Assembly (NCBI RefSeq): GCF_040954835.1
Contig: NC_090703.1
Location: 20,597,444 to 20,661,443, forward strand
Direction: 5' to 3'
From: Lepisosteus oculatus
Lineage: Eukaryota > Chordata > Actinopteri > Semionotiformes > Lepisosteidae
Length of the DNA stretch: 64,000 nucleotides
The notes under the pieces are model-generated. The model worked only from the letters and a program-made list of their open reading frames with translations, did no database searches and was not told the DNA's origin. Shown in pieces: positions 29,777 to 58,107 of this stretch; the stretch's first letter is position 1, and every line of letters begins with the position of its first letter. Made by a program: the position numbers and the translations under genes.

Positions 29777-30395
29777 ATGCTCCTGTTTGTCGCCACTCTA
29801 TTCCTCTCGCTGGCTCGTAAGTAGCGTACCTGTTGTTGCGCAGCTTCGGGGTTAAACATTTGTCTTGACAATGACACAAGATACAGCAGATTCTAACCCT
29901 ACAAAAACTGAGCTAATTTGTAATGTTTTCCTTTGGGCAGCAAACACAAGAAGTGTACAGTTTTACAGAAATGAAAAAAAAGGAAAACAGCTCCAATATG
30001 AACAATCTCACGTATGTGCCATATGCTGAAAAACATATGCATGCATGAAGCGCGGACATGTTACCAGGCTCCTAAATTAGTTCTTCTTTTCTTCCAGACA
30101 CTTTGGCAAGGACATCTGTGTGGCAGGAGAAGTTTACAGTAGGACACAGTGGTGAAGCTGTTCATCTGGTGTGCAAACAGAACGCGACTGATGAGTACAT
30201 GTACTGGTACAGGCAGGATCCCAAGGAGGGTCTGAGGCTGCTGCTCTTCTCCAGGTATGAAGGGATGGAAGCTGAGAATGAGTCTGAGGACAAGAGACTG
30301 TCAGCCAGCAGACCTGACAGAAAGAACTTCTTACTGACACTGACAGACCTCCAGCTCAATGACTCCGCTGTCTATTACTGCGCTAGCAGTTTAGA
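29777..30395 (+). CDS. TRB V gene V1 (CASS type)
   Basis: Leader exon 29777-29816 encodes MLLFVATLFLSLA, a signal peptide core; the donor is c|gtaagt. The V exon 30098-30395 follows ttcttccag. The V domain has the first Cys in EAVHLVCKQN, WYRQDPKEGLRLLLF in FR2 and NDSAVYYCASS at the end, the classic TRBV FR3/CDR3 signature. There is no stop, and a 23-type RSS follows directly, so it is judged functional. The protein would be the variable domain of the TCR beta chain on T cells. It is on the strand opposite to the constant region. Confidence 0.92.
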
Positions 30396-30434
30396 CACAG
30401 CACTACAGAGCCTCGGAGCCTCAATTCAAAAACC
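30396..30434 (+). other. RSS with 23-bp spacer of V1
   Basis: Heptamer CACAGCA (30396-30402), 23-base spacer, nonamer TCAAAAACC (30426-30434). The heptamer keeps the essential CAC but differs from the consensus CACAGTG at position 6-7. The nonamer matches the consensus at 8 of 9 positions. Confidence 0.85.
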
Positions 30435-31674
30435 TCTTGGGCAGTTCTATCAGTTGAACAGCAGAGGGCAGTGCTTGTTATGCAAACTTAAAAAATAACC
30501 CCAGTAGCATGTCCATATGATTTTCTTTGTTTTGCCTTCATAGATAGATATGATATAGACATAGACTCTGAGATCCTTTAAGAAATGACGTCTCAAAATC
30601 CTCACATTTATAGCCTAATAGAAATCAGACTCCTGCGGTTTACTGCCATTCTAATGTTGTCAGCAATTCAGGCCATAAAGAGGCCTACAGAAGGGAGTTA
30701 ACAGACAGTCACCAGACACTTGTGAGGCTTAAAGTCTGTAATAAAACGTTCAGACCAGTCACTTTACGTTGCAGATCACGCTGTATATGTTCACTGCCAT
30801 TGTGTTTTTACAGGGGTTGGTAAAGTAACCTTGCTTTATTAACACCACATGTACTATAGGATGAACACATGATATACTGTTGAATTTAGTGAGGTTGTTA
30901 AATTATTAATTAATCAAACTTTGAGAACGAGTGATTGTTTTCCTGTTGTGTAGATCCTAGTTACCATTTTTGAGCACTGGTGGGTAGGTTCCATTCTTCC
31001 CTCGGGTCCTCATTGTTCTATGATGCACCTTCACTTGACAAAGTTCTCTGACAGTGTTTTCACCCTGAAAAGGTGTGATTTAAAGCAAAATTACATTAAA
31101 AAAACTGATACTTCGATTGAAATGTAAGTTCAATTAACAGGCAAAACAACTTTGGAGGAGGAATCTTGAGTGCCAGCGATAAATCTTCAACATTTTCTTT
31201 CTAAATAAACAGTAAAGTGTTTCTTTACTTCAGTTATAACAACTGAGGGAGTACATGATGAACTGAGTCCAGGTCCCTTTCTAAGGGCTGACATTTTACT
31301 TATACAGTATTTATACTTACAGTTTATGGAACAATTCATGTAAATTGAAAGAGTTCAATTGAAGGAGATACTATTATCTTTATTGATAGCCACATAAATA
31401 AACTGCCCAGACTTGTAACAGATGCAGACTAGTTTTCCATTGGGTCTCATCAGGGCAGTCTAACTTTGTTTCGACTATGGCCTTGATGCTGTTTTGTCCT
31501 TTGTTTAGTTCTGCTTCTAGCCTAGTGACAAATCTGGGGATCTCCATCATGTTACTTGTTACATTTTAGAAATGAGCAGTTAATATTATAGAATTACACT
31601 GCTTCTCTTTATTACCCACAGAATGCCCTCATGTAGTTATTTAGTTCTGTTCTCTCAGTTTATCTGTCCATCTA

Positions 31675-32226
31675 TGTCAGGAGTTTCCAGCATTGGTCCT
31701 AGAGAGCCCCAGTCCTGCAGACTTGAAAGGTACCCAGCAAATTTCTGAAAACCTGCAAAAAGTTAACTGTGATCAAGTAAAGAAGTGATTTGTTCAATTA
31801 AATAAACTAGAGATGATCTGGAAAACGGTACCACCATCTGGAAAACGGTACCGGAGCATTCGGGCCCGGACTACTAGACTCAGAGACAGTTTTTACCCCC
31901 GCACTATCAAACTATTAAACTCCCAGCCTCTGTCACCTACGATCTGAACCCTCACAGTGCCTTCTCTCTTTATCAAAACTCAAACACACATTGAAATCTA
32001 CCTCTACCTCACATGTCAAGAAGCTCACTCCCCATAATTTTCTATCCCTTATTTCATTCTGTTGATGTTTGATTTTGCACATCTGATGGTGTTTTGCACA
32101 TTGCCTGTGCCTGTGCAATTGTATTGTTGTTTTTTTTGTACATCTTACCATCTGAGAGCTAGCTAAATACCATTTAGTTATACCATATACTTGTATATGC
32201 GTATAACGACAATAAACTTGAACTTG
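31675..32226 (+). repeat. Repeat cluster with 3' end of an L2-type LINE
   Basis: The first part (about 31678-31730) is a tcctagagagccccagtcct dispersed repeat. From about 31810 a decayed LINE end encodes RARTTRLRDSFYPRTIKLLN, the typical last residues of L2/CR1-like ORF2. It is followed by a 3' UTR ending in acgacaataaacttgaactt gaa. A 21-bp sequence, catctggaaaacggtacc-like, is directly duplicated near 31815-31850. Confidence 0.7.
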
Positions 32227-32540
32227 AAATTTAAAGAATAAGAATCATGCAAAATCTGCACTAGATGGAAAATTGTAGATGTGATCCAGCCCAGTTTCAC
32301 CTTCACTCACAACCAGTGAGAGTCAGCCTGCTGCAGCCCTGTGAGATTACCTCTCTTGGTTTGAGCGAGACAGCTGCCTGGAATCAAACACTGTTCATTG
32401 CTTGTCCTGCACAGCTTTCAGAGTCTGAGTGTTTTGCCTATCTGGGCCCAGCCCTGAAAGGAGGCGTGGAGCTGCTTTCTTGCTTAGGGCAGAGCAGACT
32501 TACAGAAGTGCTGTTCTTCTAGGCTCTCAAGAAGAGGACC

Positions 32541-32580
32541 ATGACATTCATTTTACTGCTCCTTTCGGTATTTATGCATT
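32541..32580 (+). CDS. TRB V leader exon (MTF type), probably serving V2
   Basis: ATG followed by 13 codons MTFILLLLSVFMH and one base, with donor t|gtaagt. It looks like a normal V leader. The nearest V exon (32862) has a destroyed acceptor and stops. The next intact V exon, at 33544 (V2), starts in the matching phase, would complete a Cys codon, and has no other leader upstream. So this leader probably splices to V2 across the dead V exon. Confidence 0.7.
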
Positions 32581-32861
32581 GTAAGTTCAAGTTCAAGTTC
32601 ATTGTAAGTGGTAGGAAGCTAACTTTATCTCCTTTTATTAATCTTTGTGCTCATCTCATTTCATTTCATTTGTTTTTTTTTTTTTATTTTGTGTCACATT
32701 TGAATGGAATTCCTGACTCTTTACCACTTTTTCATCAGATGAGTTTTCCTGGTGGACTTTTGTTGTTCCTGTCTCAGTCTCTTAATTTTCTTTCGATTTA
32801 TTTTTTTTCAGTGACACACTAAGCTGTGTTTTGTCTCCCTTTGTCCATTTTTGAGCTCCTG

Positions 32862-33151
32862 GTGTTTCTGCTGTGGAAGTTCCGTTTGTCCTTCAGTCTC
32901 CCTCCTCCATTGCACAGCCTGCTGGATCTCAAGCCAGTTTGATGTGCAGTGTGGAAAATTTCAGCAACCCTCAAATGTTGTAGTATAGGCAGAACTCTAG
33001 ATCAGAACTCGAGTTCCAGGTTCTGGCCATTGGACCAGGCACACATGGGGACCCACCTTTTAAGCCAGACAACTGAATGGAAGTACCTAAAGTCTGGAAA
33101 CAAAGTCTCTTGTTCAGGATAACAGTGGAGTCTACTACTGCTCATACACTG
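32862..33151 (+). pseudogene. TRB V pseudogene
   Basis: The V exon reads VSAVEVPFVLQSPSSIAQPA, then GSQASLMCSVENFSNPQML. After this the invariant FR2 Trp codon is TAG (32981-32983) before YRQ. A second in-frame TGA lies near FR3, and a frameshift precedes the final VYYCSYT. The acceptor position reads ctcctg where sister genes have ttccag, so the AG is lost. The remaining RSS is weak: CACATGG, with an acagaaacc-like nonamer at 25 bases. Confidence 0.85.
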
Positions 33152-33543
33152 CACATGGCTGTTCTCACAAATGGAGCCCCACCACAGAAACCTCTGGAGA
33201 GCTCTGTTTTGAGCACAATGGTGACATAGCCCCTTGAAGGGGCTTTTATAAGAATGTCATTTTGCTTTAGCTGGTTCTTTAAGAAAAAGCTTAAATTGTC
33301 TTTTGCCATGTTTTGTTTTACTTTGAAGGCGAAACGCAGCATGTGACAGCTGGGAGACAAAGCCATGGTTGCCATTTAGCACAATAAATAATTGTAAAGA
33401 GACTATGTGCTCCAATTACATCTGGAAATTATCAATTTTTTTCATGGAAAGCCCATCTTTTTTGTGCACATTCTCCAGACTCTAATTTTTCAGGAAGAAT
33501 TGTCTGTCAAACAAGCTGAGTTGGCTTTTCATCTCTTTTTCAG

Positions 33544-33839
33544 GTATTTCAACAGAAACTGTAATTGAGCAGAGCCCACGCTACATTGCCAAGTTACGAG
33601 GAGAGAAAGCCAAGATGAGCTGTACGCTCAGTGGGACCTCCACCCCCTTCCTCTACTGGTACAGACAGCATGGCAGTGGAGAGATGGAGTTCCTCTTTCT
33701 CTCCAGGGGCAAGGGGATGTTTGATGACTCTCCGGTGAAAGACTTTATACCAGAGAGAAAAGAAGACCTGTTCCTCAGCCTGCGCACAGACAGCCTGAGA
33801 GTGAACCACACTGCAGTGTATTACTGTGCCTGGAGTAGA
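33544..33839 (+). CDS. TRB V gene V2, V exon (CAWS type)
   Basis: The acceptor is catctctttttcag. The 296-base exon encodes ISTETVIEQSPRYIAKLRGE, then KAKMSCTLSGTSTPFLYWYR, QHGSGEMEFLFLSRGKGMFD and a FR3 ending VNHTAVYYCAWSRHSD. It has both domain Cys residues, the WYRQ Trp and no stop. It is near-identical to V3 and V4 except around CDR1. The first codon needs one base from a leader; the exon at 32541 fits. Judged functional if that leader is used. Confidence 0.88.
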
Positions 33840-33878
33840 CACAGTGACTGAGGCACACAGGGCCCCTGAACAAAAACC
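33840..33878 (+). other. RSS with 23-bp spacer of V2
   Basis: Perfect consensus heptamer CACAGTG (33840-33846), 23-base spacer and perfect consensus nonamer ACAAAAACC (33870-33878). Confidence 0.95.
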
Positions 33879-34676
33879 TCACAGGATCTTACAACTGGCT
33901 CCTGGAGCTGGCAGACTGTCATCAGCCTTGAAGTAGTAATATTGCAAGATGTAAAAATGAAAGCACTGCCATAAAACAGAAGTTTAAATATGTTGCACTC
34001 CACTATAGTCAGTGACTAACATTTCACTGTCCTTTTTTATCCGCATTGTAAGAGCCATAAATAATATTCACATGATGTTCAACCAGATAGCAGTCAGTAG
34101 TGGTTTTGTAAGAATGTTACCCATAATTTGTAAAACAGGATATTTACTTTCAATGCGAACAAAACACCTACTTGCCAGATGGGTGTCAGCACTGCCCAAC
34201 TAGATTTTAAATCTAAATAAAACTAAGGAATACATTGTAGATCTTTCAGAACTGAATTGCAATATTAAAAGGTATCTGAGAAACATTTTTGACACAGTAT
34301 TTAAATATATATACAGTATAAGTGAAAACAATGTGATTGTGTGTCCTAAAATATTTAAATGTAAATGATGTGTGTGTGTGAGATCAACTTTTACATTTAA
34401 AATTCTTCATATCGCCTCTCTGTATGGACAGTGCATCTGCTGAAGAAATAAGTCCCCCTGTGCTGCTAAGTGGAAATGATTTCATTAACAAGGCCATCAC
34501 AGGCAAGACAATCGATGAAACACTGGAGAGAGCCAAGTCTCCTCCTTCATCGTGAGGGGTGTGGACAGAGCAGAGAGGAAGAGCTCTGAGCTCATACGGG
34601 TCTAGACTCCCTTCCTGAGCTCCACAGCGCCCTGCTGCTGTCAGCGCTGAGTTCACACACACCTGTCTGGAGGACC

Positions 34677-35490
34677 ATGCTGTCACACTGTGTGCTGGTG
34701 CTGCTGCTGCTGCTGCTGCTGAGGAGTGAGTGGACCGACAGCAACTTGCTGGCGGGGTCACAGGCTGCACGGTTTCAGCTGGGGTGCAGTCAGGAGTAGT
34801 GTAGCTCCTAACAGGACTTTGAACACCTGAAGATTAAAATACAGTGATTTAGTTAGGATTTAAAATGCAACATTCCAAGCTGCTGTATTGTTAGTGTCCC
34901 TATTGGTAATTCTTACAGAGTGGTTTTCTAAGCTTTTCAAAAGAGGAAAAACGTGCTCATCAGTATCTGGAAGAAATTGTTTTCATACAGTGTGTGTGCA
35001 AATGTAGGGATAATCAATGTTACTACGAGAAAATGAACAGAAAAGAACTACACTTATACTGTACATGTTCAATTTAATTTACATTTAAAAAAATGATTGC
35101 AGTAGGAAATTTTGCATAGAGGTTAGATCATTTTGCTTCATGGTAATTTCAAGCTCACTGTTTTCTACCCTGCTAACAGGTTTCTTTTTCCCAGGTTTCT
35201 TAGCGCAGACTGTAATTGAGCAGAGCCCACACTACATTGCCAAGTTACCAGAAGAGAAAGCCGAGATGAGCTGTACTCTCAGTGGGACCTCCAGTCCCTA
35301 TCTCTACTGGTACAGACAGCATGGCAGTGGAGAGATGGAGTTCCTCTTTCTCTCCAGGAGCAAGGGGATGTTTGATGACTCTCCAGTGAAAGACTTTATA
35401 CCAGAGAGAAAAGAAGACCTGTTCCTCAGCCTGCGCACAGACAGCCTGAGAGTGAACCACACTGCAGTGTATTACTGTGCCTGGAGTAGA
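34677..35490 (+). CDS. TRB V gene V3 (CAWS type)
   Basis: Leader exon 34677-34725 encodes MLSHCVLVLLLLLLLR plus one base; the donor is a|gtgagt. The V exon 35195-35490 follows tttttcccag and encodes FLAQTVIEQSPHYIAKLPEE, then KAEMSCTLSGTSSPYLYWYR, QHGSGEMEFLFLSRSKGMFD and AVYYCAWSRHSD. Phases agree, both Cys and the Trp are present, and a consensus RSS follows. The leader contains a run of seven CTG Leu codons. Judged functional. Confidence 0.93.
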
Positions 35491-35529
35491 CACAGTGACT
35501 GAGGCACACAGGGCCCCTGAACAAAAACC
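35491..35529 (+). other. RSS with 23-bp spacer of V3
   Basis: Heptamer CACAGTG (35491-35497), 23-base spacer identical to that of V2, nonamer ACAAAAACC (35521-35529). Confidence 0.95.
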
Positions 35530-35709
35530 TCACAGGAGCTTACATCTGGCTCCTGGAGCTGGCAGACTCTCCCGAGTTTGTGTGAGGTACAAAATATAAT
35601 GAGGCACTTCCCTTATTTCAATTAACTGAACTTCAAGACCACAAACCCAAAATCAACAAGTATATGAATCATACAGCTGTGTTTGAAAGTTTATTTAAAT
35701 GTTACACAC

Positions 35710-36040
35710 CATTCATCCATCTATTCATTCATCCTATTCCAGGAGAGCCAGAGGTTATCCTGGCAACCAAGTGCAAGGTAGGGGATACCCTGAACAGGAC
35801 ACCAGTCCACTGCATGGCAGACAGATACAAACACGCATCCCCAGGGCCAGCTTTCACAGAAGCTAATTAACTTACCGGTATGTCTTTGGACTGCAGAAGA
35901 AAACTGGAACACCCAGAGGAAACACATACAAACAAGGAGAGAATGTCCAAACTCCGTGCAGACAGCACCCCAGGTCTGGAATTGAACCCAGGGCCCCAGT
36001 GCTGTGAGGCAGTAATGCTTACCACTGTGTCACCCTCATA
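35710..36040 (-). repeat. V-SINE-like copy
   Basis: Minus-oriented copy. The + strand shows gaacccagggccccagtgct and gtgaggcagtaatgcttacc at the head side, gagaatgtccaaactccgtg in the body and ggacaccagtccactgcatg toward the tail. It separates V3 from V4. Confidence 0.75.
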
Positions 36041-36099
36041 AACATAATTCATTTTAATGCAAATTAGTTAGAGTTTGCATTAAAGTTTGCAGCAGTCAA

Positions 36100-36245
36100 A
36101 CATTAATTAGTTTCTGGGAAGATTGGCCCTGGTGTGAATGTGTGTGTGTGTGGTATCCCATCAAGAGTGTTTTCTGTTTTGCACCTGGTGCTTGCCAGGA
36201 TAGGCCCTGTGACCCTGTGTTAGATGAAGTGTCTAGAAAATGAAG
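36100..36245 (+). repeat. V-SINE-like 3' fragment
   Basis: Reads ttaattagtttctgggaaga ttggccc, then a short GT run and ccaggataggccctgtgacc. This is the tail half of the same SINE family in plus orientation. Confidence 0.5.
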
Positions 36246-36694
36246 GAAAGGATACTGGGAAAGTACATTCTTGGTGAAATATTAAAAATACACATACATT
36301 AAAATATATATGTGCATGAATACCAATATCAATTTGTACCAGATTTAGACATAAATTAATATATTAACTGTAGTTTTATGTTTTGTTGTATTTAATTTCT
36401 GCACTCGTTACAAGTGACTCTCACTGTGCAGCTTTATTAGGCATATCAGCCAGTGATCTTCTCACATCTTCTGGGTACATTACAAGATTGAAGATTGAAC
36501 TGTCTAGGAACTATGTGATGAGTCATCAACCGATGAAGCATTGGAGAGGGCCAGGTCTCCTCCTTCATCGCGAGGGGTGTGGACAGAGCAGAGGGGAAGA
36601 GCTCTGAGCTCACACAGGTCTGGACTCCCTCCCTGAGCTCCACAGTGCCCTGCTGCTGTCAGCGCTGAGCTCACACACACCTGACTAGAGGACC

Positions 36695-37694
36695 ATGCTG
36701 TCACACTGTTTGCTGGTGCTGCTGCTGCTGAGGAGTGAGTGGACTGACAGCAACTTGCTGGCGGGGTCACAGGCCGCAGGGTTTCAGCTGGGGTGCAGTT
36801 AGGAGTACTGAAGCTCCTAACAGGACTTTGAACACCTGAAGATTAAGTGATTTAGTTAGGCTTTGTTACACAGATGAGGCTTTTAAGGATTTTCCAAGTT
36901 ATGTGTCTGTATTGGTAAACCTTACAAGGGTGGTTTTCTAAGCTTTTGAAACCAGAAAATGTTCTCACTGTTTTCTGAAAAAAACAAACAAACACAATTT
37001 TAAGCATGAAAATGTGGTATAAAATAATATTAGCAGAGATATGACAAATGAGATGTTCTATATTTCTTACCTTAAACATACTTTTTAAGAGCAGGTGGAG
37101 GGCATTAGTGCAAAACAAACAATTCATGTTTGAAGTAAAAAATGTTCAGAAATACAACAGAAGTAAATGTTTGAAGAATGCCTAAGGTGTATTTCAGTTA
37201 AATCTGAGACAATGTTCCTAATGTTTTTTTTTGGCCCTTATGCAAAAGAGGGGATCATGACATTTTGGAGGAAACAACAAAATTCATTTTACTGCTCGTC
37301 TTTCTAGTAAATGCTCATTCAGTCTAATCAGCTCTTGTTTTTCCATGGTAAATTCAGTCTGGCTGTTTCTACAGAGACCAATAGTTATTTTTCCCCAGGT
37401 ATTTCAGCACAGACTGTGATTGAGCAGAGCCCACGCTACATTGCCAAGTTACCAGAAGAGAAAGCCGAGATGAGCTGTACTCTCAGTGGGACCTCCAACC
37501 CAGATCTCTACTGGTACAGACAGCATGGCAGTGGAGAGATGGAGTTCCTCTTTTGCTCCAGGGGCAAGGGGATGTTTGATGACTCTCCGGTGAAAGACTT
37601 TATACCAGAGAGAAAAGAAGACCTGTTCCTCAGCCTGCGCACAGACAGCCTGAGAGTGAACCACACTGCAGTGTATTACTGTGCCTGGAGTAGA
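36695..37694 (+). CDS. TRB V gene V4 (CAWS type)
   Basis: Leader exon 36695-36734 encodes MLSHCLLVLLLLR plus one base; the donor is a|gtgagt. The V exon 37399-37694 follows ttttccccag and encodes ISAQTVIEQSPRYIAKLPEE, then KAEMSCTLSGTSNPDLYWYR, QHGSGEMEFLFCSRGKGMFD and AVYYCAWSRHSD. It has an extra Cys in the FR2/CDR2 border (FLFCSRGKG). The long intron holds a broken second leader near 37258. Judged functional. Confidence 0.93.
37258..37320 (+). pseudogene. Relic MTF-type V leader inside V4 intron
   Basis: Reads atgacatttt, then an insertion of about 17 bases, then ttcattttactgctcgtctt t. Without the insertion it matches the leader at 32541. The insertion shifts the frame into a stop, so it cannot serve as a leader. 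Confidence 0.6.
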
Positions 37695-37733
37695 CACAGT
37701 GACTGAGGCACACAGGGCCCCCGAACAAAAACC
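37695..37733 (+). other. RSS with 23-bp spacer of V4
   Basis: Heptamer CACAGTG (37695-37701), 23-base spacer differing from V2/V3 at one base, nonamer ACAAAAACC (37725-37733). Confidence 0.95.
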
Positions 37734-38282
37734 TCACAGGAGCATACAGCTGGCTCCTGGAGCTGGGCACGATGATGCTGTCTAAGTTACTCTCCATTGA
37801 AGAATAAGGGGGTGGGGTTCCTAAAAATCCAGTGGCAGTTTTCGTTGTACATTGCAATATCTGTTCAAATACCATTACTTTAACATTACTAAATATTTTT
37901 TCATTGTTCGGCAATGACTGCTGTGCTTATCCTGACTGCAGTGTCCGGGACACCCCTATGCTTTGAAACATTGGAATTAACCTGGAATTGAGCATAACTG
38001 AAAAAGTAAAGCAATAATTAAAAACTAAATCTGCAGAAGGTTTTCATTTAAAAATATAAGAGATCACAGATCAGCTAAGGAGTACTTTTTCAAGCAATAG
38101 TTTGAAACAAACATAGGAATGCTCTGAGATGACAGTTACTGGGACTCAAACAATAGTTGCAGAGTGAAGTGTGGTTGGGAGGGCTGGGTGTCAGGGGTGG
38201 AGTTTGGGTGCTCAGTGCTCAGTGACCCGAACGAGTATTTCTGCTCTGCTCCTTGAGCTCACACACACCTGACTGGAGGACC

Positions 38283-38969
38283 ATGCTGTCACCCTGTGTG
38301 CTGGTGCTGCTGCTGCTGAAGAGTGAGTGGACTGACGCCAACTCGCTGGCTAGGGTCATAGACCCTCCATCTTACAAAATTGAGTTTACACTGTTAGAAA
38401 TGATCAATTCAATTCCTTGTGTTTCTTTCTAGCTCTACAAGTCTCAGACTAATGCAACAATTGATATCTTGGACTTAAGAATCCTTGCCATTGCTCTCTT
38501 TTTTTTTTACTTTTTAGGAATAATATTCTAGAATGTTATTAAGATGATGATTTCATGTTATTTTTTCTGCAGTACAGGATATTTTAATGTAGAATTTTGA
38601 TTTAGGCTCTACACTGTATACTGTCTACATGTCTGTAAGGTGGGGTAAGTGAAAGCGTATCATTTCTCTCTTTCAGGTGTGGATGCTATGTCTGCACATC
38701 AGTTTCCTCTTTCATTGGTTCATAGGTCTGGCTCTCCAATGAACATAACTTGCTCCATTACAGACCACAGCAATCCCAATATGTACTGGTACAGGCAAGG
38801 CCCTGAACATGAGCTGGAGTTGCTTTTTTATTCTATTGGTACTGGACATGTAGATCCCATCAGACTAGACCGGTTTAGAGGAAGCAGACACAACAGCTCC
38901 CATTTCACTCTGGAGTCTACAGCTTTGGCAGTGGATGACTCTGCGGTGTATTTCTGTGCTGGGAGTGCC
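38283..38969 (+). CDS. TRB V gene V5 (CAGS type, MLS-type leader)
   Basis: Leader exon 38283-38322 encodes MLSPCVLVLLLLK plus one base and is closely related to the leaders of V3/V4. The V exon 38677-38969 follows ctctctttcag and encodes VDAMSAHQFPLSLVHRSGSP, then MNITCSITDHSNPNMYWYRQ, GPEHELELLFYSIGTGHVDP and FTLESTALAVDDSAVYFCAG followed by SAHSA. The FR3 end is almost identical to V7. The promoter and leader thus look group-B while the V exon is group-C. Judged functional. Confidence 0.92.
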
Positions 38970-39008
38970 CACAGTGCCTGACACACATTGACTATCAGCA
39001 CAAAAACC
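38970..39008 (+). other. RSS with 23-bp spacer of V5
   Basis: Heptamer CACAGTG (38970-38976), 23-base spacer, nonamer ACAAAAACC (39000-39008). Confidence 0.95.
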
Positions 39009-40029
39009 ACACCTGCAGTCCTTCCCTGAGCCTTATCTTTCACCGTTGTTAATATAGGAGCATGTCAGCTAGAAGACAGTCATGGCGTTACAATGTTTTT
39101 AAGCATAATGTATTTAGAGTACATGGTGAATTCCAGCGGAAAAGTATTTCTTAAAGGTATCCTAAAAGTTTAAAGTTGCATTTTGGGACTTGCTGAGCCC
39201 AATAACGTATTAGAGGACATATGCTTATTAATTTTATTTCTCCCAAGATGTAACATAAGAGCAAAAGAAAGATAACAAATGAGAGATGGCTATTGGCTCA
39301 TTTCTGCTCATTGCTAGAAATTGATTGTCCATGAATCCTGTATTGTTGTCCTTCACGGGCTTCAACAATCTGATTCCCACAGCCCTTTGCATAAAGAAGT
39401 ACCTGCTGTTCTCAGTCTTAACTGCACCGTTGTTTTGCAGCTGGGGAGGTTTGAAAAATTATGATCTCCAACGTTTTCTAAAAGAAGGTACAAACGTACA
39501 AGAAAGAATATGAGAAGGTTAAAGAGAAGTGAAATTATCTTTTCTTTAAAAAATGGTTTGGGAAAATAATCAGTTTTTCAAATCTTTCAGTTATCCAGTG
39601 GTTCCTGGCCAGAATGTGTTGGGTGGGAACACTGCACCCCAAAACACAGAACTGAACCCAGATTGCTCCCGCAAAGAACACATTGGTACATAAATTGACA
39701 TGGAAAGAGATATGTAATTAAACCCACTGTATACTGATTTGAAATTATCAGCCAAGACAATACATTAATAATAATCTTACTGAGTGGGTGGGTAATGTAT
39801 GCACACCTGAAATGTCTGCTTGTTAAAAAGCATGCCAGCTTACACATAATTCTTAATAAACTCCAGTACATTTAAAATTAGAAACATTAGGGTGAGATTA
39901 GGTGCATCAAGCCATTCGTCTAGTGAGATCTGGCTTGAAAAACAGCTTCACAGTGAAAAGAGTATCTCTACAAAGTCATGAGTGCATTTTCCTTCTCCAT
40001 CTCCAGGTGTCTCTGCAGGTCCTCTCAGC

Positions 40030-40040
40030 AGCGATGTCAC
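40030..40040 (+). promoter_or_regulatory. CRE/decamer-like promoter motif of V6
   Basis: AGCGATGTCAC, about 180 bases upstream of the V6 start codon, resembles the conserved TRBV promoter decamer AGTGAYGTCA known from mammals. The surrounding 300 bases are duplicated upstream of V7. Confidence 0.4.
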
Positions 40041-40220
40041 AGCTGGGTGAAAAGGAGGCGGATGTTCAGACGTGAGGTGGCCTCAGGCTCTTTGACGACC
40101 TCTTGCTCTTCCCCAGAGGTGATCAAACCTTGTTCTGTCACACCAGCTCTCTTCCTGATCCTCCTCTGGAGCTCCCAGCAGACACAGACACAGAAGTCCT
40201 TCGTGTGGCAGCAAGGCATC

Positions 40221-41053
40221 ATGGGTCTCTTTCTCCTGCTGCTGCTGGTCAGGGGTGAGCTGTTACAGTGATTCTATTCATACATATCGACAGTGCTCAT
40301 TACAGTTTTAGAAGACACTTGGCAAATATTAAGACCAAACAGATTTAGCTTTTTGAGAAACATGCTGAGCGGTACTTATTTCTAAGGTTTGGTACAGAAC
40401 TCCATTTATTCCCTATATTTTAAAAATACATCTAAATAATAATTTATAAATAATTCTAAAAACAAATCAAGCAGAAGACAGCAGGCTCTAAAACAAGATA
40501 GATTTCTAATAGTACCTAAAGAGAGGTAGGACTATCTGAATCAGACTCAAGCATTGAGATTTTGGAATCGTCATGTCAGGAAAAACTTTTCAAGCATTTG
40601 CACTGACTCAATTATTTGCATAACAATGCAATTCAAATGAACTGTGTGTGAAATCAAGTAATGTGAATCCTGAGACAGCTTTTAAGGAGGAATGTCTTCC
40701 CTGACTAATCCCCAACCTGAACCTGTTATTTTAAGTAATTGCTTTTTTTCTTTCTTCCAGGGGCTGTTTCTGTGACTGTACGGCAGTATCCTACAATAGA
40801 ATTTGGAATACAAGGCAGTACTTTAAAAATATACTGTGAGGTGACAGGGTCAGCTAGTCCTTCAATCTACTGGTTAAAGCAACAGAGCCATAGTGATCTG
40901 AATCCTCTGTTTTATTCTGTTGCTTCTGGTAATGTAGATCCCCCCACACAGGGGCATTTCAGTGCAACCAGACCCAATGGCTCCCACTTCATTCTGGAGT
41001 CTACAGCCTTGACAGTGGATGACTCTGCAGTGTATTTCTGTGCTGGAAGCACT
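40221..41053 (+). CDS. TRB V gene V6 (CAGS type)
   Basis: Leader exon 40221-40254 encodes MGLFLLLLLVR plus one base; the donor is g|gtgagc. The V exon 40761-41053 follows tctttcttccag and encodes AVSVTVRQYPTIEFGIQGST, then LKIYCEVTGSASPSIYWLKQ, QSHSDLNPLFYSVASGNVDP and FILESTALTVDDSAVYFCAG followed by STHSA. FR2 has WLKQ where most TRBV genes have WYRQ or WFRQ. Phases agree, there is no stop and a consensus RSS follows. Confidence 0.92.
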
Positions 41054-41092
41054 CACAGTGCCTGAAACACATTGACTGTCAGTACAAAAACC
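41054..41092 (+). other. RSS with 23-bp spacer of V6
   Basis: Heptamer CACAGTG (41054-41060), 23-base spacer, nonamer ACAAAAACC (41084-41092). Confidence 0.95.
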
Positions 41093-41530
41093 ACACCTGC
41101 AGTCATTCTACAAGCTCAGAGATAAACCATCATTAATTCAGAAGCACTGCAGATACAAAAGAGAGAATAGTCTTCAATAACTCAATAATCAGTCTCTGCT
41201 GTTTTTGTTAGCACAATACAATTTATTTATTTTTACTTAGTGAAATGATTCATGGGAGAAGGGGAACTTAGCAACAGGTAGTTGACTGAACTCATTATTA
41301 TGACCCGTTTCTCTCAGAAAACTGATCCAATAATTCACATTGAATTGAGAAGGACATTTGAGAGCATTTTTCATGTTCCTGTGGAAAGCTTTTTTACTGC
41401 TGCCTTAAGCCTGTTTTTAAATTAATCTGTTTTTAAAATCAAGACTTTCATGCACAAGGAGTTTCTTTGTACAAAGCCATGAGTTAATTTTCCTTCTCCA
41501 TTGCCAGGTGTCTCTATAGGTACTCTCAGC

Positions 41531-41541
41531 AGCGAGGTCAC
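41531..41541 (+). promoter_or_regulatory. CRE/decamer-like promoter motif of V7
   Basis: AGCGAGGTCAC, about 200 bases upstream of the V7 start. It is the duplicated counterpart of the V6 motif but carries T to G at the CRE core, so it may be weaker. Confidence 0.3.
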
Positions 41542-41738
41542 AGCTGGGTGAAAAGGAGGCTGATGTTCAGGCGTGAGGTGGCCTCAGGCTCTCTGACACC
41601 CACCAGCTCTTCCCCAGAGGTGATCACACCTTGTTCTGTCACACCAGCTCTCTTCCTGATCCTCCTCTGGAGCTCCCAGCAGACACAGACTCTGACTCAG
41701 AGCTGAGAGACAAGTCCTTCGTGTGGCAGCAAGGCATC

Positions 41739-42657
41739 ATGCGTCTCTTCCAACTTCTGCTGCTGGTCAGGGGTGAGTTGTAACAATCACAGAAGCTTTG
41801 TTTTTGCTGATAGCTTCGATTCCATCAGTTTGAAAAAATAACCATAATAAAAAAGTAAAGGTTTGAAAAAAAGTAATCTGCTCTTCATTGGTTGTCCACA
41901 ATTTATCTCCCTTGTAAAAACAACAGTTTTTCCATATTAGAGTAGCAGCTTCAGCCATTATTTAATATTTGTGATTGTTTGTCAGTGAAAAAGGCTACAT
42001 GGTAATCAGACATTTCAATGCATGATGGAAGAGCAAAACCAGTATGTTTTTGTAGAATCTCTGCTCTTTAACCAATTAATTACATTTTCAGCATATGCAC
42101 TTTCTTTTCTGTAAGAATGTAATCAACATTTTCTTTCTGAGCAGTGCAATAGGCTGTTGTTCCATGCAGCGTGCAGTCCCACCTTGTACTCTGGGCCTCT
42201 GGAACAGGCTCTGTGTCGCCACGACTCTCACCAGTAATATGTGGCTTTCTAATAATGGATGGAAGGATTGTAATAGTATTAATTTTAGGATAATGGTGTA
42301 AGAGATAGACTTTTGCTGATCTCTACCCCGTTATTTGAATCAGCTGTCCTTTTTTTCCTTCCAGGTGCTGTGTCTGTGACAGTTCGGCAGTATCCTACAG
42401 TAATATTTGAAAGACAGGGAAGTTCTTTTGAGCTAAACTGTGAGGTGACCGGATCTTCTAGCCCTTCAATCTACTGGTTCAGGCAGCACAGCTCTAGTTT
42501 GCTGAAGCCTCTGTTTTTCTCTTCTGCTCCTGGGACTGTAGATCCCCCCACAGTGGACCAGTTCAGCTCAAGCAGGCAGAACTGGTCCCATTTCACTCTG
42601 GAGTCTACAGCTTTGGCAGTGGATGACTCTGCGGTGTATTTCTGTGCTGGGAGTGCC
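41739..42657 (+). CDS. TRB V gene V7 (CAGS type)
   Basis: Leader exon 41739-41772 encodes MRLFQLLLLVR plus one base; the donor is g|gtgagt. The V exon 42365-42657 follows tttccttccag and encodes AVSVTVRQYPTVIFERQGSS, then FELNCEVTGSSSPSIYWFRQ, HSSSLLKPLFFSSAPGTVDP and FTLESTALAVDDSAVYFCAG followed by SAHSA. Both Cys residues and the FR2 Trp are present, with an NWS sequon in FR3. This is the V gene closest to the constant region. Judged functional. Confidence 0.93.
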
Positions 42658-42696
42658 CACAGTGCCTGACACACATTGACTATCAGTACAAAAACC
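42658..42696 (+). other. RSS with 23-bp spacer of V7
   Basis: Heptamer CACAGTG (42658-42664), 23-base spacer, nonamer ACAAAAACC (42688-42696). Confidence 0.95.
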
Positions 42697-49337: not shown

Positions 49338-51860
49338 CTGCAAAAAATAGAAAAAAAGAATCCATCTGCTATGTGCAATTTAATTAAATCGGATCATACT
49401 GTTATGAAATTTTGTGAATTACAAGTTTTAATTCAATCCAGTCTTTTACACAACTCTGAGTGTCAAAACAGTCATGCAAATTGTGTTTATTGCAGATATC
49501 ACAAGGATTGTCCTATCAACAATACTCATAATAAAGTTTGGATCAGCTCTGATTTCTCTTTTCAAAGCAACACAGGCAAAGGGGTCCCATTTCAAAAGCT
49601 TTTATCTGAATTCTTCCAATCTTGCAGTTTAGGCAAAGGTTTTCTCACATGTAAGCTGTAAGAATGAAAAAAAAAACAGTATCTCAATCTTACTAACATT
49701 TTTGTTATACTATATTTGTAGTGCAGAATTATGACATATGACCAAACATATACCGTCTGACTTTTTTCCAACATTTAACAATTACAATGTACATATTAAA
49801 ATACTGAACTAAACCTGCCACACAGTAATACTTAGCAACACCGTTATCAGACATTGCACTACATATTTTTCATTATACTTCTTTGACTTTCAAACTTCAC
49901 CCACAGTTCATACTCCAGTCGCCTGGGCCTGATTTAAAAATCCCTGCTGCCCTAAATATCAAATAAAAAAATCAATAGTCGGCGAAGAATTATGTTAAGC
50001 TGCAGATTTTTAATGCCATAAAAATATTTTAGTTTTAATTCTGTGCTTTACCTTTAGTTTCCAGACAAGGACTGTGAGGAGAAGTCCGTAGAGAGTGCTC
50101 TTGCCGAGGAACAGCAGGTAGGTGAGGCGTGTCGACCTTAAAGTTTCTACAACTAAGCAGAGCAAAGCGTCGGACAACTCATGGCAAACCTGGGCTTGCA
50201 GAGAAACTGCCAGATAATGGGGAAACTATCCATTTGTATAGAACTGACAAAATAGTACATCATAGAGAGAATAATAGAATTCTAGTTATTACAGAATAAA
50301 TGATGAATGTGAGCAGCAGTAGTAAATGTTCTTCTTTTCTTGTGGTTCAAACATTAAATGCAAAATGTTTCTGTCATTTTCAATGGTGTAACAACATCAG
50401 ATTTCCCAGTTTAATGATTTTTGAATTCCCCTTTTCCCTGTGTCTGTGACATTATACTTCAATATCAAAAACCATGAAACACTTATACTTCTGTCTGGGG
50501 AAAACTATAGAATATTAATTCCCTATCAGTAATTTGAGTAGCATGTCTTAACTGAAGTTACTGAAGAATGAATAGGCTGCAAATACAAATAGTAGAAAGT
50601 GCATTTGGCTTTGTAATACAATTGGACTATACTGTTCTTTGAGCTTTATTTTTTAATGAGAGGGTGATAATTCACATTTAAAACGATGTAGCAAACAAAG
50701 CACCTACAAAAAGTGAAAGGTTAGATAACAGTTGAAAGAACAGCAGAATACAGTCCATCAAATGCAGTATATCGAGCTTACCTGCACCACAACCTGAAAG
50801 ACAAAAAAAAAGCTATTTTACAAGCTAATTTGAAATCTTAGAAAAGGAAATATCATATAATACTTATCTGCACAGCAGTTATGATAAATAAATAACATCA
50901 AGGCATATACTGTATTTATATAAGCTTGGTATTAGCTTGCAAATCATTAGATACTGTATGATGAAAAAAATATTCTCTTTTGTTTTATGCACATTAACTT
51001 TTATATTTTGTTTTTTTTTACAGAGCTTTGAAAGCAGGTCTGTTGTTAGGTATGTAGCTACTGGACTGGTCCAGTAATCGAGAAATTGAAATCACCACAT
51101 ACATTATACTGTCAGTGGTCTGTACTGCTTTAATTATTATTATAATAGTAATTCAGAACTCTTGAGAGGAGAAACAGGCTCACCCTGAATATACTGGTAG
51201 TAGCCAGTAATGCAGAATGATAGTATCTACTGTAACTCTTCATGACTTCTAAATGGGACTATTTCTTTAAATACTACCTGCAACTGTTTTTTATAGATTG
51301 AAAATAACCTAGCTGTAAAAAGTTTTGATGGCATGTGCTTGTGTTTTAAAACAAATTAATGTGTGGAGACAATACAAGCAGAATAAGATCATGGTGTCAA
51401 GCTGTTAAAAGTTTGAACGTTTTTGAGTGCGGTTGTAGATTGAAAACTCATTAATTAGATACAAAGCTAAAGTACCACAGCTGTTACTTACACCCATCCC
51501 TATCTAAGCCTGTTCCAGCCTAGTGACACCTACCCTCCTTTCCCTTGATGGATATTTCTACTGGGGCACTTTCATTGAAGAAAGTGGTGACACAGGTGAA
51601 GTTTTTCTTTGGAGTGAACCACTCGAGCGCGCTGACTCTCAGCCGGCTGGTGATGCTGTACTTTCCCTCTTTGTCCTTGATTGCTGTATCATCTGTCTTA
51701 ACCCAGTTTGTTCGGTCCTGTCCACTGACTTTCCAAGAAACAGTGATGTGTTCGGGATAGAAACCTGTGATCACACACACTAAGGTGGCTCTTCCTTTGT
51801 CTTTGATTTCCTTTTTCGAGGGCTGAAGGATTTTGACAGTGGGCCTAGTGATATTTTTGT
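49272..51860 (-). CDS. trbc: TRB constant region (C beta), four exons
   Basis: Exons on the - strand: 51860-51534 (Ig domain), 50793-50782 (hinge with Cys), 50194-50052 (connecting peptide and membrane segment) and 49337-49272 (cytoplasmic tail, stop). Phases join from J (one base left) through all exons. The product is the invariant part of the TCR beta chain, pairing with TCR alpha and CD3. The Ig fold, the Lys-containing membrane helix and the Cys-bearing microexon match C beta rather than C alpha, C gamma or C delta. The upstream J segments support this. Only one C region is present. Confidence 0.95.
50052..50194 (-). CDS. trbc: TRBC exon 3, connecting peptide and transmembrane segment
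   Basis: Encodes (A)QVCHELSDALLCLVVETL, then RSTRLTYLLFLGKSTLYGLL and LTVLVWKLK. The LLFLGKSTLYGLLLTVL part aligns with the mammalian C beta membrane helix and keeps the basic Lys needed for CD3 contact. The correct acceptor is ctctgcaag; a second AG five bases further (cccag) would lead to an immediate stop. The donor is aag|gtaaag. Confidence 0.9.
50782..50793 (-). CDS. trbc: TRBC exon 2, 12-base hinge microexon
   Basis: Between ttttttgtctttcag and |gtaagc lie only 12 bases, gttgtggtgcag. With one base from exon 1 they encode G-C-G-A-like residues, including the Cys expected to form the inter-chain disulfide bond with TCR alpha. Mammalian C beta has a comparable 18-base exon at this position. 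Phases on both sides are correct. Confidence 0.85.
51534..51860 (-). CDS. trbc: TRBC exon 1, C1-set Ig domain
   Basis: The acceptor is tcctctccctcag. With the base left by J it encodes DKNITRPTVKILQPSKKEIK, then ATLVCVITGFYPEHITVSWK, EGKYSITSRLRVSALEWF and KKNFTCVTTFFNESAPVEIS followed by IKGKE. The Cys pair (LVCVITGFYP and FTCVT) and SW core are those of a TCR C domain. There are three N-glycosylation sequons (NIT, NFT, NES). The long FG loop of mammalian C beta is absent, as in other fish. Confidence 0.96.
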
Positions 51861-53309: not shown

Positions 53310-53359
53310 CTATGACAAACAGTTTTGTGCCATCGCCGAAGAAAACTGGATTGCCAGAG
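53310..53359 (-). CDS. TRB J segment J1 (closest to C)
   Basis: Coding reading SGNPVFFGDGTKLFVI plus one base, with the FGxG motif, then donor |gtgagtc. The 12-type RSS lies at 53360-53387: on the + strand heptamer CACAGTG, 12-base spacer, nonamer ACCAAATCT (weak). Phase fits TRBC exon 1. Confidence 0.93.
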
Positions 53360-53387
53360 CACAGTGGTCTGAAACTAAACCAAATCT
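53360..53387 (-). other. RSS with 12-bp spacer of J1
   Basis: Consensus heptamer at 53360-53366 and a 12-base spacer. The nonamer at 53379-53387 departs from the consensus at several positions, so J1 may be used less than J2-J4. Confidence 0.8.
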
Positions 53388-53719
53388 GTACACCCATTTC
53401 TGCAAGGCATGCTTATCTACAGGTGTTTATTTTGCAGAATTTGGGGTTTTCATAGATGAAGCAAAACTAACTCAAATGTATTTGTTATAAAGTGTTGAGT
53501 CTGTACTGTGAAACAATAAAATGCTGTAAGACGTGAATTTATTGAAAGGTTTTATACAATATAATTTGCAAACAGGTGACGCTTCAGGAGTTTGATTCTT
53601 TATAATTATACTCATTTTTTTAACTGAGTAATTAATAAGAAACTGCTTTCAGACAAATAGTGTGTATCTATACATACAGAGATAACATTTTCAGACTTTT
53701 TAAAAGCTGGATATCATAC

Positions 53720-53769
53720 CTAGGACTATCAGTTTTGATCCTCTGCCGAAGTGCTGCTCATAGCCAGAG
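53720..53769 (-). CDS. TRB J segment J2
   Basis: Coding reading SGYEQHFGRGSKLIVL plus one base, FGxG motif, donor |gtatgat. The RSS of 12-type is at 53770-53797: heptamer CACAGTT, 12-base spacer, nonamer CACAAAACC. Confidence 0.94.
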
Positions 53770-53797
53770 CACAGTTTCACAACTCATGCACAAAACC
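53770..53797 (-). other. RSS with 12-bp spacer of J2
   Basis: Heptamer CACAGTT (53770-53776), 12-base spacer, nonamer CACAAAACC (53789-53797), read on the + strand. Confidence 0.88.
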
Positions 53798-53990
53798 TCT
53801 CCAAATTCTATACCTAATCTCTGTCAAATACGATTATACATGAACAGGCAAAAATGCCTTTTTTTATTTTAAAGACAAAACAAAGCAAGGGAAGTTTATT
53901 GATGTAAAAGTGATCGTAAAATATGGTGGTTACTGTAGCCCTAGTCTATTTTTTCGTAAAATGAAATGTAATCAATGGGAATGTTCTTAT

Positions 53991-54043
53991 CCAGTACTGT
54001 CAACTTGGTTCCTTCACCAAAGTACAAAGGTGAGGGGCCAGAA
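53991..54043 (-). CDS. TRB J segment J3, splice donor altered
   Basis: Coding reading SGPSPLYFGEGTKLTVL plus one base, with an intact FGxG motif. The sequence after it is ATAAGAAC where the sister segments have GTAAG or GTGAG, so the first intron base is A instead of G. A rearranged J3 could not splice normally to C. RSS at 54044-54071: heptamer CACAGTG, 12-base spacer, nonamer TTCAAAACC. Confidence 0.88.
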
Positions 54044-54071
54044 CACAGTGACACAAGATGTGTTCAAAACC
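54044..54071 (-). other. RSS with 12-bp spacer of J3
   Basis: Consensus heptamer CACAGTG (54044-54050), 12-base spacer, nonamer TTCAAAACC (54063-54071), read on the + strand. Recombination looks possible even though splicing is not. Confidence 0.88.
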
Positions 54072-54291
54072 ATAGCCTGTGCTATGCACACATATGCACA
54101 CTGAAGTGTTGGTCCAGGTAAATGCTTTTGGCTCCAATAGTTTCTGAATCAACTCGCCTTCATGTCCTTTACTCTCTGAAGGTCTCAATCTCAGATAATC
54201 ATTTGAACTTGAAAATCTCAAGAAGTGTTTAAAAAACATTTTTGTGAACAACAGATATTTCAAGACAAACGTAATATTGAAAATACCTTAC

Positions 54292-54344
54292 CCAAAATGA
54301 TTAACTTGGTTCCAGTACCAAAACTCAAAGGTGTATAACCTGAG
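54292..54344 (-). CDS. TRB J segment J4 (closest to D)
   Basis: Coding reading SGYTPLSFGTGTKLIIL plus one base, FGxG motif, donor |gtaagg. RSS at 54345-54372: heptamer CACAGCG, 12-base spacer, nonamer ACCAAAACT. No further J was found up to 58 kb. Confidence 0.93.
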
Positions 54345-54372
54345 CACAGCGATTCATGACATTACCAAAACT
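54345..54372 (-). other. RSS with 12-bp spacer of J4
   Basis: Heptamer CACAGCG (54345-54351), 12-base spacer, nonamer ACCAAAACT (54364-54372), read on the + strand. Confidence 0.85.
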
Positions 54373-56680: not shown

Positions 56681-56724
56681 TTATCTCGTAATTACGAGAT
56701 ATGTATCTCGTAATTACGAGATAA
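56681..56724. repeat. Perfect nested palindrome
   Basis: Two 20-base arms, ttatctcgtaattacgagat (56681-56700) and its exact inverse (56705-56724), are separated by four bases. Each arm is itself built on the 18-base palindrome ATCTCGTAATTACGAGAT. Confidence 0.9.
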
Positions 56725-57019: not shown

Positions 57020-57240
57020 ATAGGTATTGTAACGGACACGGCCAACATTACAGGTTGTGCGAGCTGGTTGCCAGCGTGGTGATGTCACCGCCCTTCCCTG
57101 TGAATAGCAGGGACCTTCAGCCGGCTGGTTCCCTGTTGAGTGATGCCAGAGACCCGGGTTTGAGCCCCAGCGTTGGAGGGCTGACCTGAGGCGGGAGCCA
57201 TGAGGGCACAAACCCATGAGAACCCGAAAGCACTATAGTA
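57020..57240 (+). repeat. SINE-like repeat with B-box
   Basis: A GC-rich block within AT-rich sequence. It contains gtgatgtcaccgcccttccc, gagacccgggtttgagcccc (B-box GGTTTGAGCCC) and aggcgggagccatgagggc. It looks tRNA-derived; the family is unknown. Confidence 0.45.
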
Positions 57241-57359
57241 TTAAAGGAATAAATGAAAGGTTTATTCCATTGTGAAAAGAGAAGAAAAGAAAGACAACAT
57301 TATGGCTGTGAGGCCTTCTGCCCTCCATCCAAGTGAAAAAAGGGACTTCCACGTTTTTT

Positions 57360-57800
57360 GAGATGTGCAAGCTACTACCAAAGGACCATCACCAACTTCT
57401 CTGCAATCACTGCTCCCTTGTCTGAACGACCCAAAAAAGGGTACTCCAGATACAGTCTAGTAGATGGAGCAGCACTAAATCCGTGTTCCAGACAATGATG
57501 ACGATGGAGGACCTGCTGTGTTGGAACGCAATCATGTGCTGTCCAGACTTCTCCTTACAGTTTATTTTGCAGGGACTGGGAACAATGCTGTTTCAAAAGA
57601 TCCGGGGAGTGGAATGACAGGCTGTCTACCTCAACAGGAAGCTCTTTCCTCAGTGCTACAACCCTATCGAAAGTGATTGCCCAGCCATCAAGTGGGAACC
57701 ACAATACTACATAGCGCGACACCCCTTTACACTCATAACTGATCATGCTCTTCTGAGGTGGCTCCCTGTTGACAGGCGTGAGAAGATTAAATTCTGCAGA
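57360..57800 (+). mobile_element. Decayed Ty3/gypsy pol (RT/RNase H) fragment
   Basis: Translated with frameshifts, it shows the border of reverse transcriptase and RNase H. The readable blocks are LLCWNAIMCCPDFSLQFILQ, GLGTMLFQ, LNRKLFP, YNPIESDCPAIKWE and TLITDHALLRWL, the usual order in gypsy RNase H. It has several stops and no LTRs. It lies about 270 bases from the D segment. Confidence 0.75.
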
Positions 57801-58030
57801 CCAGGGCTCATGAGGCAGCCAGTATCTGAAAGATAGATTTTGGGACCATCTGAAGACAGACTGTTTCTGTGCCTCATTTTGTCTTTGTAATTATGAACAT
57901 TTTGTTTCACTACATGAAAGAATAAGAGAGTAATTGTGCTTGTACAACACTGGTGTGCTGTTGATTTTTACCAGTCTGTTACATATTTATTATTGTCAAG
58001 AGACCCTGCAAGGCAATTTGATGCTACTTT

Positions 58031-58067
58031 GGTTTTTGTAGTTTGCTATGGAAGATCTATCACTGTG
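58031..58067 (-). other. 3' RSS of TRB D segment, 21-bp spacing
   Basis: On the - strand: heptamer CACAGTG (58067-58061) directly after D, 21 bases, then a perfect nonamer ACAAAAACC (58039-58031). A 23-base spacer is expected here. At exactly 23 bases the nonamer would read aaaaaccaa, which is poor. Confidence 0.75.
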
Positions 58068-58079
58068 CCCCCCCGTCCC
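58068..58079 (-). other. TRB D segment
   Basis: Twelve bases reading GGGACGGGGGGG on the - strand, very close to the Gly-rich mammalian TRBD1 sequence (GGGACAGGGGGC). It is flanked on both sides by heptamers, with a 12-type RSS on the 5' side and a roughly 23-type RSS on the 3' side, the arrangement unique to beta/delta D segments. It encodes Gly in most frames. It is 3.7 kb upstream of J4 and on the same strand as J and C. Confidence 0.88.
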
Positions 58080-58107
58080 CACAGCAATACAGTATCATTC
58101 AAAAACT
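58080..58107 (-). other. 5' RSS with 12-bp spacer of TRB D segment
   Basis: Read on the + strand: heptamer CACAGCA (58080-58086), spacer atacagtatcat (12), nonamer TCAAAAACT (58099-58107). It is compatible with the 23-type RSSs of the V genes. Confidence 0.85.

Follow-up and report, generated by a model that had tools for sequence, protein, structure and literature searches.

In mammals, human TRBV30 and mouse TRBV31 (TRBV28 in opossum) are located 3' of the last TRBC gene in the opposite orientation, carry a 23-bp RSS and belong to one sequence group; the Lepisosteus oculatus TRB locus described here is alike in all of these respects. As far as the available text of one report goes, the inverted V30 of mammals is joined by inversion, and it is preferentially used in human, mouse, bats and artiodactyls, though not in rhesus (PMC11264764). 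The opossum orthology is termed an ancient arrangement in the available portion of another report (PMC2275272). The layout V(n)-DJC-DJC-inverted V is described for human, zebrafish and catfish in the accessible part of a third (PMC9247247). The TRB loci of zebrafish and channel catfish resemble the present one in that V, D, J and dual C are followed by reversed V, but the same part of that report gives one or few reversed V and no link to TRBV30, whereas seven are present here.

We analysed a stretch of 64,000 nucleotides (the window; Table 1). It contains seven V exons, all on the + strand (30098-42657), each with an RSS of 23-bp spacer on its 3' side pointing right. The RSSs of V2-V7 (six of seven) are the exact consensus CACAGTG-23-ACAAAAACC, and that of V1, CACAGCA-23-TCAAAAACC, is off consensus. 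An RSS scan of the window, covering heptamers starting with CAC, TGC or CGC, gave six 23-RSSs at 14/16 or better, all on the + strand and all within 28-43 kb. Leader, V exon and RSS are complete in six of the seven inverted genes, and the features taken to mark a functional V gene (leader, open V exon, conserved Cys and Trp, 23-RSS) were found in these same six, V1 and V3-V7. The V exon of V2 is open and its RSS is perfect; between the V pseudogene and V2, a leader search with a 25-base floor found no likely exon. This floor recovers the 34-base leaders of both V6 and V7, which were overlooked at a floor of 36 bases. Homology between V2 and V3 begins near the splice acceptor, at 33534. The preliminary description had counted seven intact V genes on the + strand with rightward RSSs; strand and signals hold throughout, and intactness holds for six, V2 being without a leader of its own. 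The dN/dS values among the V genes were 0.37-0.51 in the four pairs computed. A V1-like fragment was also found at 28739-28852. Scans of the window against Rfam (gathering scores) and for tRNA genes gave nothing, and a Pfam search of seven flanking reading frames identified transposase fragments in two and nothing in the other five.

Table 1. TRB features in the window, in window coordinates.
Feature	Span	Strand	Parts	Remarks
V1	29777..30434	+	leader 29777-29816; V exon 30098-30395; RSS 30396-30434	TRBV19/28/6-like by pairwise score
V pseudogene	32541..33153	+	leader-like exon at 32541; V exon 32843-33153	V exon contains stops
V2	33544..33878	+	V exon 33544-33839; RSS 33840-33878 (perfect)	TRBV30 group; no own leader found
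V3	34677..35529	+	leader 34677-34725; V exon 35195-35490; RSS 35491-35529 (perfect)	TRBV30 group
V4	36695..37733	+	leader 36695-36734; V exon 37399-37694; RSS 37695-37733 (perfect)	TRBV30 group
V5	38283..39008	+	leader 38283-38322; V exon 38677-38969; RSS 38970-39008 (perfect)	TRBV30 group
V6	40221..41092	+	leader 40221-40254; V exon 40761-41053; RSS 41054-41092 (perfect)	TRBV30 group
V7	41739..42696	+	leader 41739-41772; V exon 42365-42657; RSS 42658-42696 (perfect)	TRBV30 group; closest to C
TRBC	49629..51860	-	exons 51534-51860, 50782-50793 (connecting, with Cys), 50052-50194 (transmembrane), 49629-49655	3'-most of two; exon roles assigned by eye from the translation
Four TRBJ	53310..54372	-	J4 53310-53359; J3 53720-53769; J2 53991-54043; J1 54292-54344	12-bp RSS
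TRBD GGGACGGGGGGG	58031..58107	-	D 58068-58079; 5' RSS 58080-58107; 3' RSS 58031-58067	

Concerning the D, four J and C exons, their earlier placement on the - strand was borne out, with four C exons and a span of 49.6-58.1 kb. The Ig-C1 domain and the connecting and transmembrane exons of TRBC were all found. Among the best 60 of 5477 PDB matches of C exon 1, most were TCR beta chains, and a few, including the top two, were immunoglobulin-type chains. The 5' RSS of the window's D has a 12-bp spacer and a weak heptamer, its 3' RSS has a spacer of 21 bp as against 23 bp in the upstream D, and the splice donor of J2 is AT rather than GT. As the D and J2 signals are thus weak or broken, the D-J-C cluster of the window may see little use.

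The 200 kb to the right of the window were searched in the same genome, with coordinates continued in window numbering. A second D-J-C cluster is present there, with C at 66.3 kb, D at 78.2 kb and 16 J motifs, and its D has good RSSs. The second Cbeta is 68% identical to that of the window; the next C-domain matches, at 33-34%, are on other contigs. Beyond this cluster we found the main V array, 74 V matches at 89-227 kb that correspond to about 71 genes (three broken genes account for two matches each), all on the - strand and hence in conventional orientation. No V was detected from D to the right window edge, nor, at E values up to 1e-3, any on the + strand farther right in these 200 kb. 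The order of the locus is consequently V(n)-DJC-DJC-inverted V. The RSSs follow the scheme of a 12-RSS 5' and a 23-RSS 3' of D, 12-RSSs at the J genes of the window and 23-RSSs at the V genes, with spacer deviations; many of the main V genes carry a 22-bp spacer. In mammals, trypsin genes sit inside the V array. A motif scan of 264 kb recognised none within the array here. Globin exons of the same genome were compared with PDB chains: one alpha exon has fish haemoglobins as its best single chains, well above those of tetrapods, a second alpha exon gives a mixed list, and the beta exon comes nearest to bird chains; alpha-like and beta-like globin genes share one contig. On balance this suggested a ray-finned fish.

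Taken together, the window very probably represents the 3' end of an ordinary TRB translocon, and its inverted cluster a tandem-expanded counterpart of TRBV30/TRBV31 that would be joined by inversion. The position, 3' of the last TRBC and in orientation opposite to D-J-C, is that of the mammalian genes. Gene order, orientation, RSSs, open frames and splice sites (the V2 leader and J2 donor excepted) were observed directly, as was the tree, in which the TRBV30/31 clade stands apart from other TRBV and includes V2-V7. A branch at 98/95 separates V2-V7, human TRBV30 and mouse TRBV31 from 66 main V, V1 and 12 human V; the tree (94 columns, 87 rows) gives no order inside the TRBV30 group. Trees denying the link between V2-V7 and TRBV30 were rejected by AU tests (p = 0.011 and 0.021), the groups having been defined after inspection of the tree. 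In pairwise comparisons, with manually entered reference V sequences, TRBV30/31 was the best of 14 references for all six of V2-V7, 16-33 bits above the next human V. Among the fish V compared, the best match of TRBV30 was V5 and that of TRBV31 was V6. The best single TCR beta chains in the PDB for V4 and V7 were 3hg1/5xov; MEL5 is a TRBV30 receptor according to the available part of a report (PMC5887915). The comparison with TRBV30/TRBV31 made in the preliminary description is thus upheld, V2-V7 being grouped with TRBV30 in the tree. On sequence evidence, the inverted block corresponds to the TRBV30 position, which here has grown to hold six genes of TRBV30 type and one other V.

We considered the possibility that part of the local V array was inverted in this lineage, and that the resemblance of the cluster to TRBV30 arose by convergence or as an artefact of the tree. 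Pairwise scores do not place V1 with TRBV30, its best references being TRBV19, 28 and 6-5, and it adjoins the TRBV30 group at just 80/80 in the tree. Of the 66 main V, 8 likewise have TRBV30 as the top of the 14 references, with a margin of no more than 4.2 bits. V2-V4 score almost as high against the best main V, TRBV30/31 being just 1.5-4.7 bits above it; with so small a margin, their TRBV30 link rests on the tree. Chicken, where the inverted V is assigned to a family that also includes three conventional V (PMC10972964), offers a precedent. On the other hand, for V5, V6 and V7, TRBV30/31 outscores the best of the 66 main V by 22, 23 and 9 bits, respectively, the trees lacking a TRBV30 link were rejected, and V7 matches reach no more than 49 bits outside the inverted block, against 54-56 with V2-V4 and 101-134 with V5 and V6 (150 of 578 candidates scored). 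We consider such a local inversion unlikely. An error of assembly is less likely still. The locus was read from a single assembly, and in pink salmon a set of nine V displaced behind C was attributed to an assembly issue by the authors, as stated in the accessible part of their report (PMC10464911). However, neither the window nor the 200 kb at its right contains any N, an error would hardly place TRBV30-group V at the mammalian TRBV30 place and in its orientation, and reversed V after C are reported in zebrafish and catfish in the part of the literature cited above (PMC9247247). Finally, the proposal of the preliminary description that the whole V cluster is inverted relative to D-J-C, with inversion as the main joining mode, would fit the seven inverted V of the window and the lack of V between D and its right edge, but, provided that the assembly to the right is correct, is rejected with near certainty by the 74 conventional matches (about 71 genes) and second D-J-C just outside, with no + strand V beyond D at E values up to 1e-3 in the 200 kb searched. 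That description had left to a search for further V genes upstream of D whether the inverted block is the main V source or a side cluster; the conventional V at 89-227 kb settle this in favour of a side cluster.

As a counterpart of TRBV30, the cluster would have gained its six TRBV30-group genes, in two subgroups (V2-V4 and V5-V7), by tandem duplication, with V1 as an additional gene of another type. RAG would pair the 23-RSS of a V with the 12-RSS 5' of a D, and the DNA between the paired signals, which takes in C and the whole interval from C to the chosen V, would invert. Since the two signals share one direction along the chromosome, it would retain the signal joint; the earlier deduction of this mode of joining from the orientation of genes and RSSs was correct. 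The estimate of 15-28 kb for the inverted DNA agrees with the germline distance from the inverted V to the window's D (15.4-27.7 kb), but the segment itself would measure 10.7-24.0 kb after D-to-J deletion. To the upstream D, the germline distance is 35.5-47.8 kb. Conventional V lie at least 30.9 kb from the window's D, and a main V is found 10.8 kb from the upstream D. Judging from these arrangements, cells should perform inversional joining and use its product. An ad hoc scan for ETS-RUNX composite sites gave 12 in the window, equivalent to 1.2 expected per 6.3 kb, and none at 42.7-50 kb; we therefore claim no enhancer there.

Exact consensus 23-RSSs are present in six of the seven inverted V and in 2 of the 74 main-array matches (Fisher p = 5.9e-7), or in 13 of 74 when spacer length is ignored (p = 5e-4), V2-V4 and V5-V7 being tandem copies that leave just two or three independent lineages. 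The exact RSSs, and a distance to the window's D shorter than that of conventional V, are the reasons for a tentative suggestion: the inverted TRBV30 position might derive from the ancestor of ray-finned fish and mammals, and might have been duplicated here and retained as a preferred source of beta chains. The sequence of this one genome is evidence that mammals and this fish may share a single old arrangement in their inverted V behind Cbeta, and the contrast in RSS quality provides a testable case for long retention of V genes joined by inversion.

Among the literature matches listed, we recognised no report of inverted V in the TRB of gar, bowfin or sturgeon; the bowfin TCR beta locus is named, and its orientation is not given in the text available. 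In axolotl, several non-inverted V fall inside the inverted clade at low bootstrap (PMC11754216), which, together with the chicken case, indicates that V position and lineage are not always coupled. Where mammals have one inverted gene, the present locus has six of the TRBV30 group together with one further V and a V pseudogene. Several inverted TRBV, as here, are described in tuatara (5 V), Iberian ribbed newt (three clusters), axolotl and Chinese alligator, all of other lineages, in the available parts of two reports (PMC11754216; PMC12698447). By the same accounts, those of tuatara lie behind TRBC, as here, whereas two of the newt's inverted clusters are among six TRBC-J-D units (PMC11754216; PMC12698447), and most inverted V of the newt show expression, as far as the accessible text of the second states (PMC12698447). 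Multi-gene inverted V clusters have thus already been reported elsewhere, and the present cluster adds one more.

Concerning V gene orientation, we searched the genome (1.2 Gb, 813 contigs; window at C8:20597444-20661443) and read the locus over the window and the next 200 kb to its right (264 kb in all; window numbering is continued beyond 64 kb). The preliminary description had suggested looking in these 200 kb for further V genes. An HMM built from V1-V7, the seven + strand TRBV genes of the window (V1 farthest from C, V7 nearest), and 14 human and mouse V sequences gave 74 V matches there (E ≤1e-3), three pairs of which are halves of one broken gene each (~71 genes). As all 74 are on the opposite strand, the claim that the whole V cluster is inverted was an over-reading. 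Sixty-six of the matches span at least 255 bases, and 37 passed a simple test (length, two cysteines, 23-RSS). Many other V genes of this main array have a 22-bp RSS spacer, which in 11 of the 74 (~140-223 kb) replaces the 23-bp spacer between a perfect heptamer and nonamer. The second Cbeta is 68% identical to that of the window; the other 54 of the 56 matches genome-wide are far weaker and on other contigs. In the second cluster, 16 of 19 FGxG(T/S) motifs run on into LTVLG, the J count leaving out the three that do not, and the upstream D has good RSSs on either side. In conventional reading, the locus order is V(n)-DJC-DJC-inverted V.

Features of the L. oculatus TRB locus (window numbering)
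Feature	Position	Strand	Remark
DDE transposase gene fragments	3487-4264		Pfam DDE_3
EXD2-like exonuclease exons	20092-25288	-	C side
V1-like fragment	28739-28852	+	same orientation as V1-V7
V1-V7 exons	30098-42657	+	23-bp-spacer RSS after each, pointing right
V pseudogene	32843-33153	+	same orientation as V1-V7
C exons (four)	49629-51860	-	window; spliced, an open TCR beta constant region
J (four)	53310-54344	-	window
D (12 bases)	58068-58079	-	window; with RSSs 58031-58107
Second Cbeta	66.3-66.7 kb		right of window
J motifs of second cluster	68.5-77.7 kb		right of window
Upstream D	78188-78199		right of window
Main-array V matches (74)	88,953-226,666	-	right of window

Within the window, the opposed orientations of V1-V7 and of D, the four J and C are real and had been well described. 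Six 23-RSSs score at least 14/16 in the window, and their confinement to the + strand of the V block leaves chance as no explanation. Heptamer and nonamer are exact consensus in six of the seven inverted V genes, against 2/74 in the main array, a contrast of interest among tandem copies that are not independent; the exception is V1 (CACAGCA/TCAAAAACC). The count of seven intact V genes holds for exons with a 23-RSS, but not for V2, which is without its own leader: no likely start exon was found between the pseudogene and V2, leaders below 36 bases included. One may speculate that V2 borrows the leader at 32541. The likeness of V2 and V3 begins near the splice acceptor. DNA identity is 96% for V2-V4 and 79% for V6-V7, with dN/dS of 0.37-0.51 in the four pairs calculated.

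The relationship of the block to TRBV30 (human) and TRBV31 (mouse), the inverted V genes of mammals, is of interest. One of the two was the best reference for all six of V2-V7, leading the next human V by 16-33 bits; TRBV30 was also best for 8 of 66 main V genes (lead ≤4.2 bits). In the PDB, no single TCR beta chain scored higher than 3hg1/5xov with V4 (48 bits) or V7 (56 bits); the MEL5 receptor is TRBV30, according to a passage of PMC5887915. Multi-domain constructs rank above these chains through summed domains, including the single-chain TCR 3tf7, whose beta part gives 33 bits for V4. The best single chains for V1 (65 bits) include TRBV6-2 receptors. In an unrooted tree of 87 rows, V2-V7 and TRBV30/31 lie on one side of a branch (support 98/95). 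With groups chosen after the tree was seen, AU tests rejected keeping all human and mouse V together (p-AU 0.011) and grouping V2-V7 with the main V (0.021), and did not reject V1-V7 as a single clade (0.08). We regard an ordinary TRB layout, with the inverted block as counterpart of TRBV30/TRBV31, as highly probable. It is improbable that part of the local V array was inverted in this lineage, the TRBV30 likeness being convergence or a tree artefact. The lead of TRBV30/31 over the genome's own main V is 22, 23 and 9 bits for V5, V6 and V7, but 1.5-4.7 bits for V2-V4, and this small margin slightly raises the standing of such a lineage-specific event and slightly lowers our confidence in the TRBV30/TRBV31 counterpart.

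With the signals of V and D facing in one direction, a V-D joint needs inversion, as had been proposed; the V 23-RSS would pair with the 12-RSS 5' of D. The segment of 15-28 kb given for this agrees with the germline distance to the window's D (15.4 kb for V7, 27.7 kb for V1), but D-J deletion in this cluster (3.7-4.7 kb) would leave 10.7-24.0 kb to invert. Following the inferred steps, use of V7 would leave V1-V6 upstream of the joined gene, and use of V1 would turn V2-V7 with the segment, so that they would finish on the downstream side of C and have no D. At the window's D, the 5' heptamer is weak (5' RSS CACAGCA/TCAAAAACT) and the 3' RSS spacer is 21 bp long (23 bp in trout, in a passage of PMC10464911), and J2 (53991) has AT at its splice donor where GT is needed; this 3' cluster may thus be little used. 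The connecting exon of its C (12 bases) carries a cysteine. Since the 5' RSS of the upstream D (CACAGTG/ACAAAAACT) is better, that D, 35.5-47.8 kb from the inverted V before deletion, may be their main partner.

Elsewhere in the genome, the best match of V1 beyond itself, among the best 150 of 696 candidates, was a V exon with one TAG (C5:61570208-61570483; 45% identical). Most of the best 150 V-set matches lie on C18 over ~3-19 Mb and are perhaps IgH or TRA/D; four score equally, 5,017 bases apart (5.257-5.273 Mb). Of the EXD2-like exons, 23901-24410 matches EXD2 (6k17); the other two are presumably EXD2 by resemblance, and no EXD2 match was found for 20092-20463. EPHB6 sits at this locus end in mammals and chicken, as a passage of PMC2275272 has it. 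The transposase fragments lie farther to the left.

Inverted V sets are already known in other vertebrates, and the present locus is a further case. As a rule, mammals carry one inverted V gene 3' of C. Passages of the respective papers describe one or a few in zebrafish and catfish (PMC9247247), one each in chicken (PMC10972964) and duck (PMC5278385), five in tuatara (PMC11754216) and three inverted clusters in newt, with axolotl and alligator cited as having several inverted V (PMC12698447). A shared ancestral inversion has been proposed for amniotes, with mention of salmonids and some amphibians, in a part of PMC11754216 where the same low-support clade also took in several non-inverted axolotl V. 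For salmonids, PMC10464911 places almost all genes of a locus in one orientation in the section concerned, unlike PMC9247247, which marks a salmonid V as opposite; the cod TRB genes are all forward according to a legend of PMC13149839.
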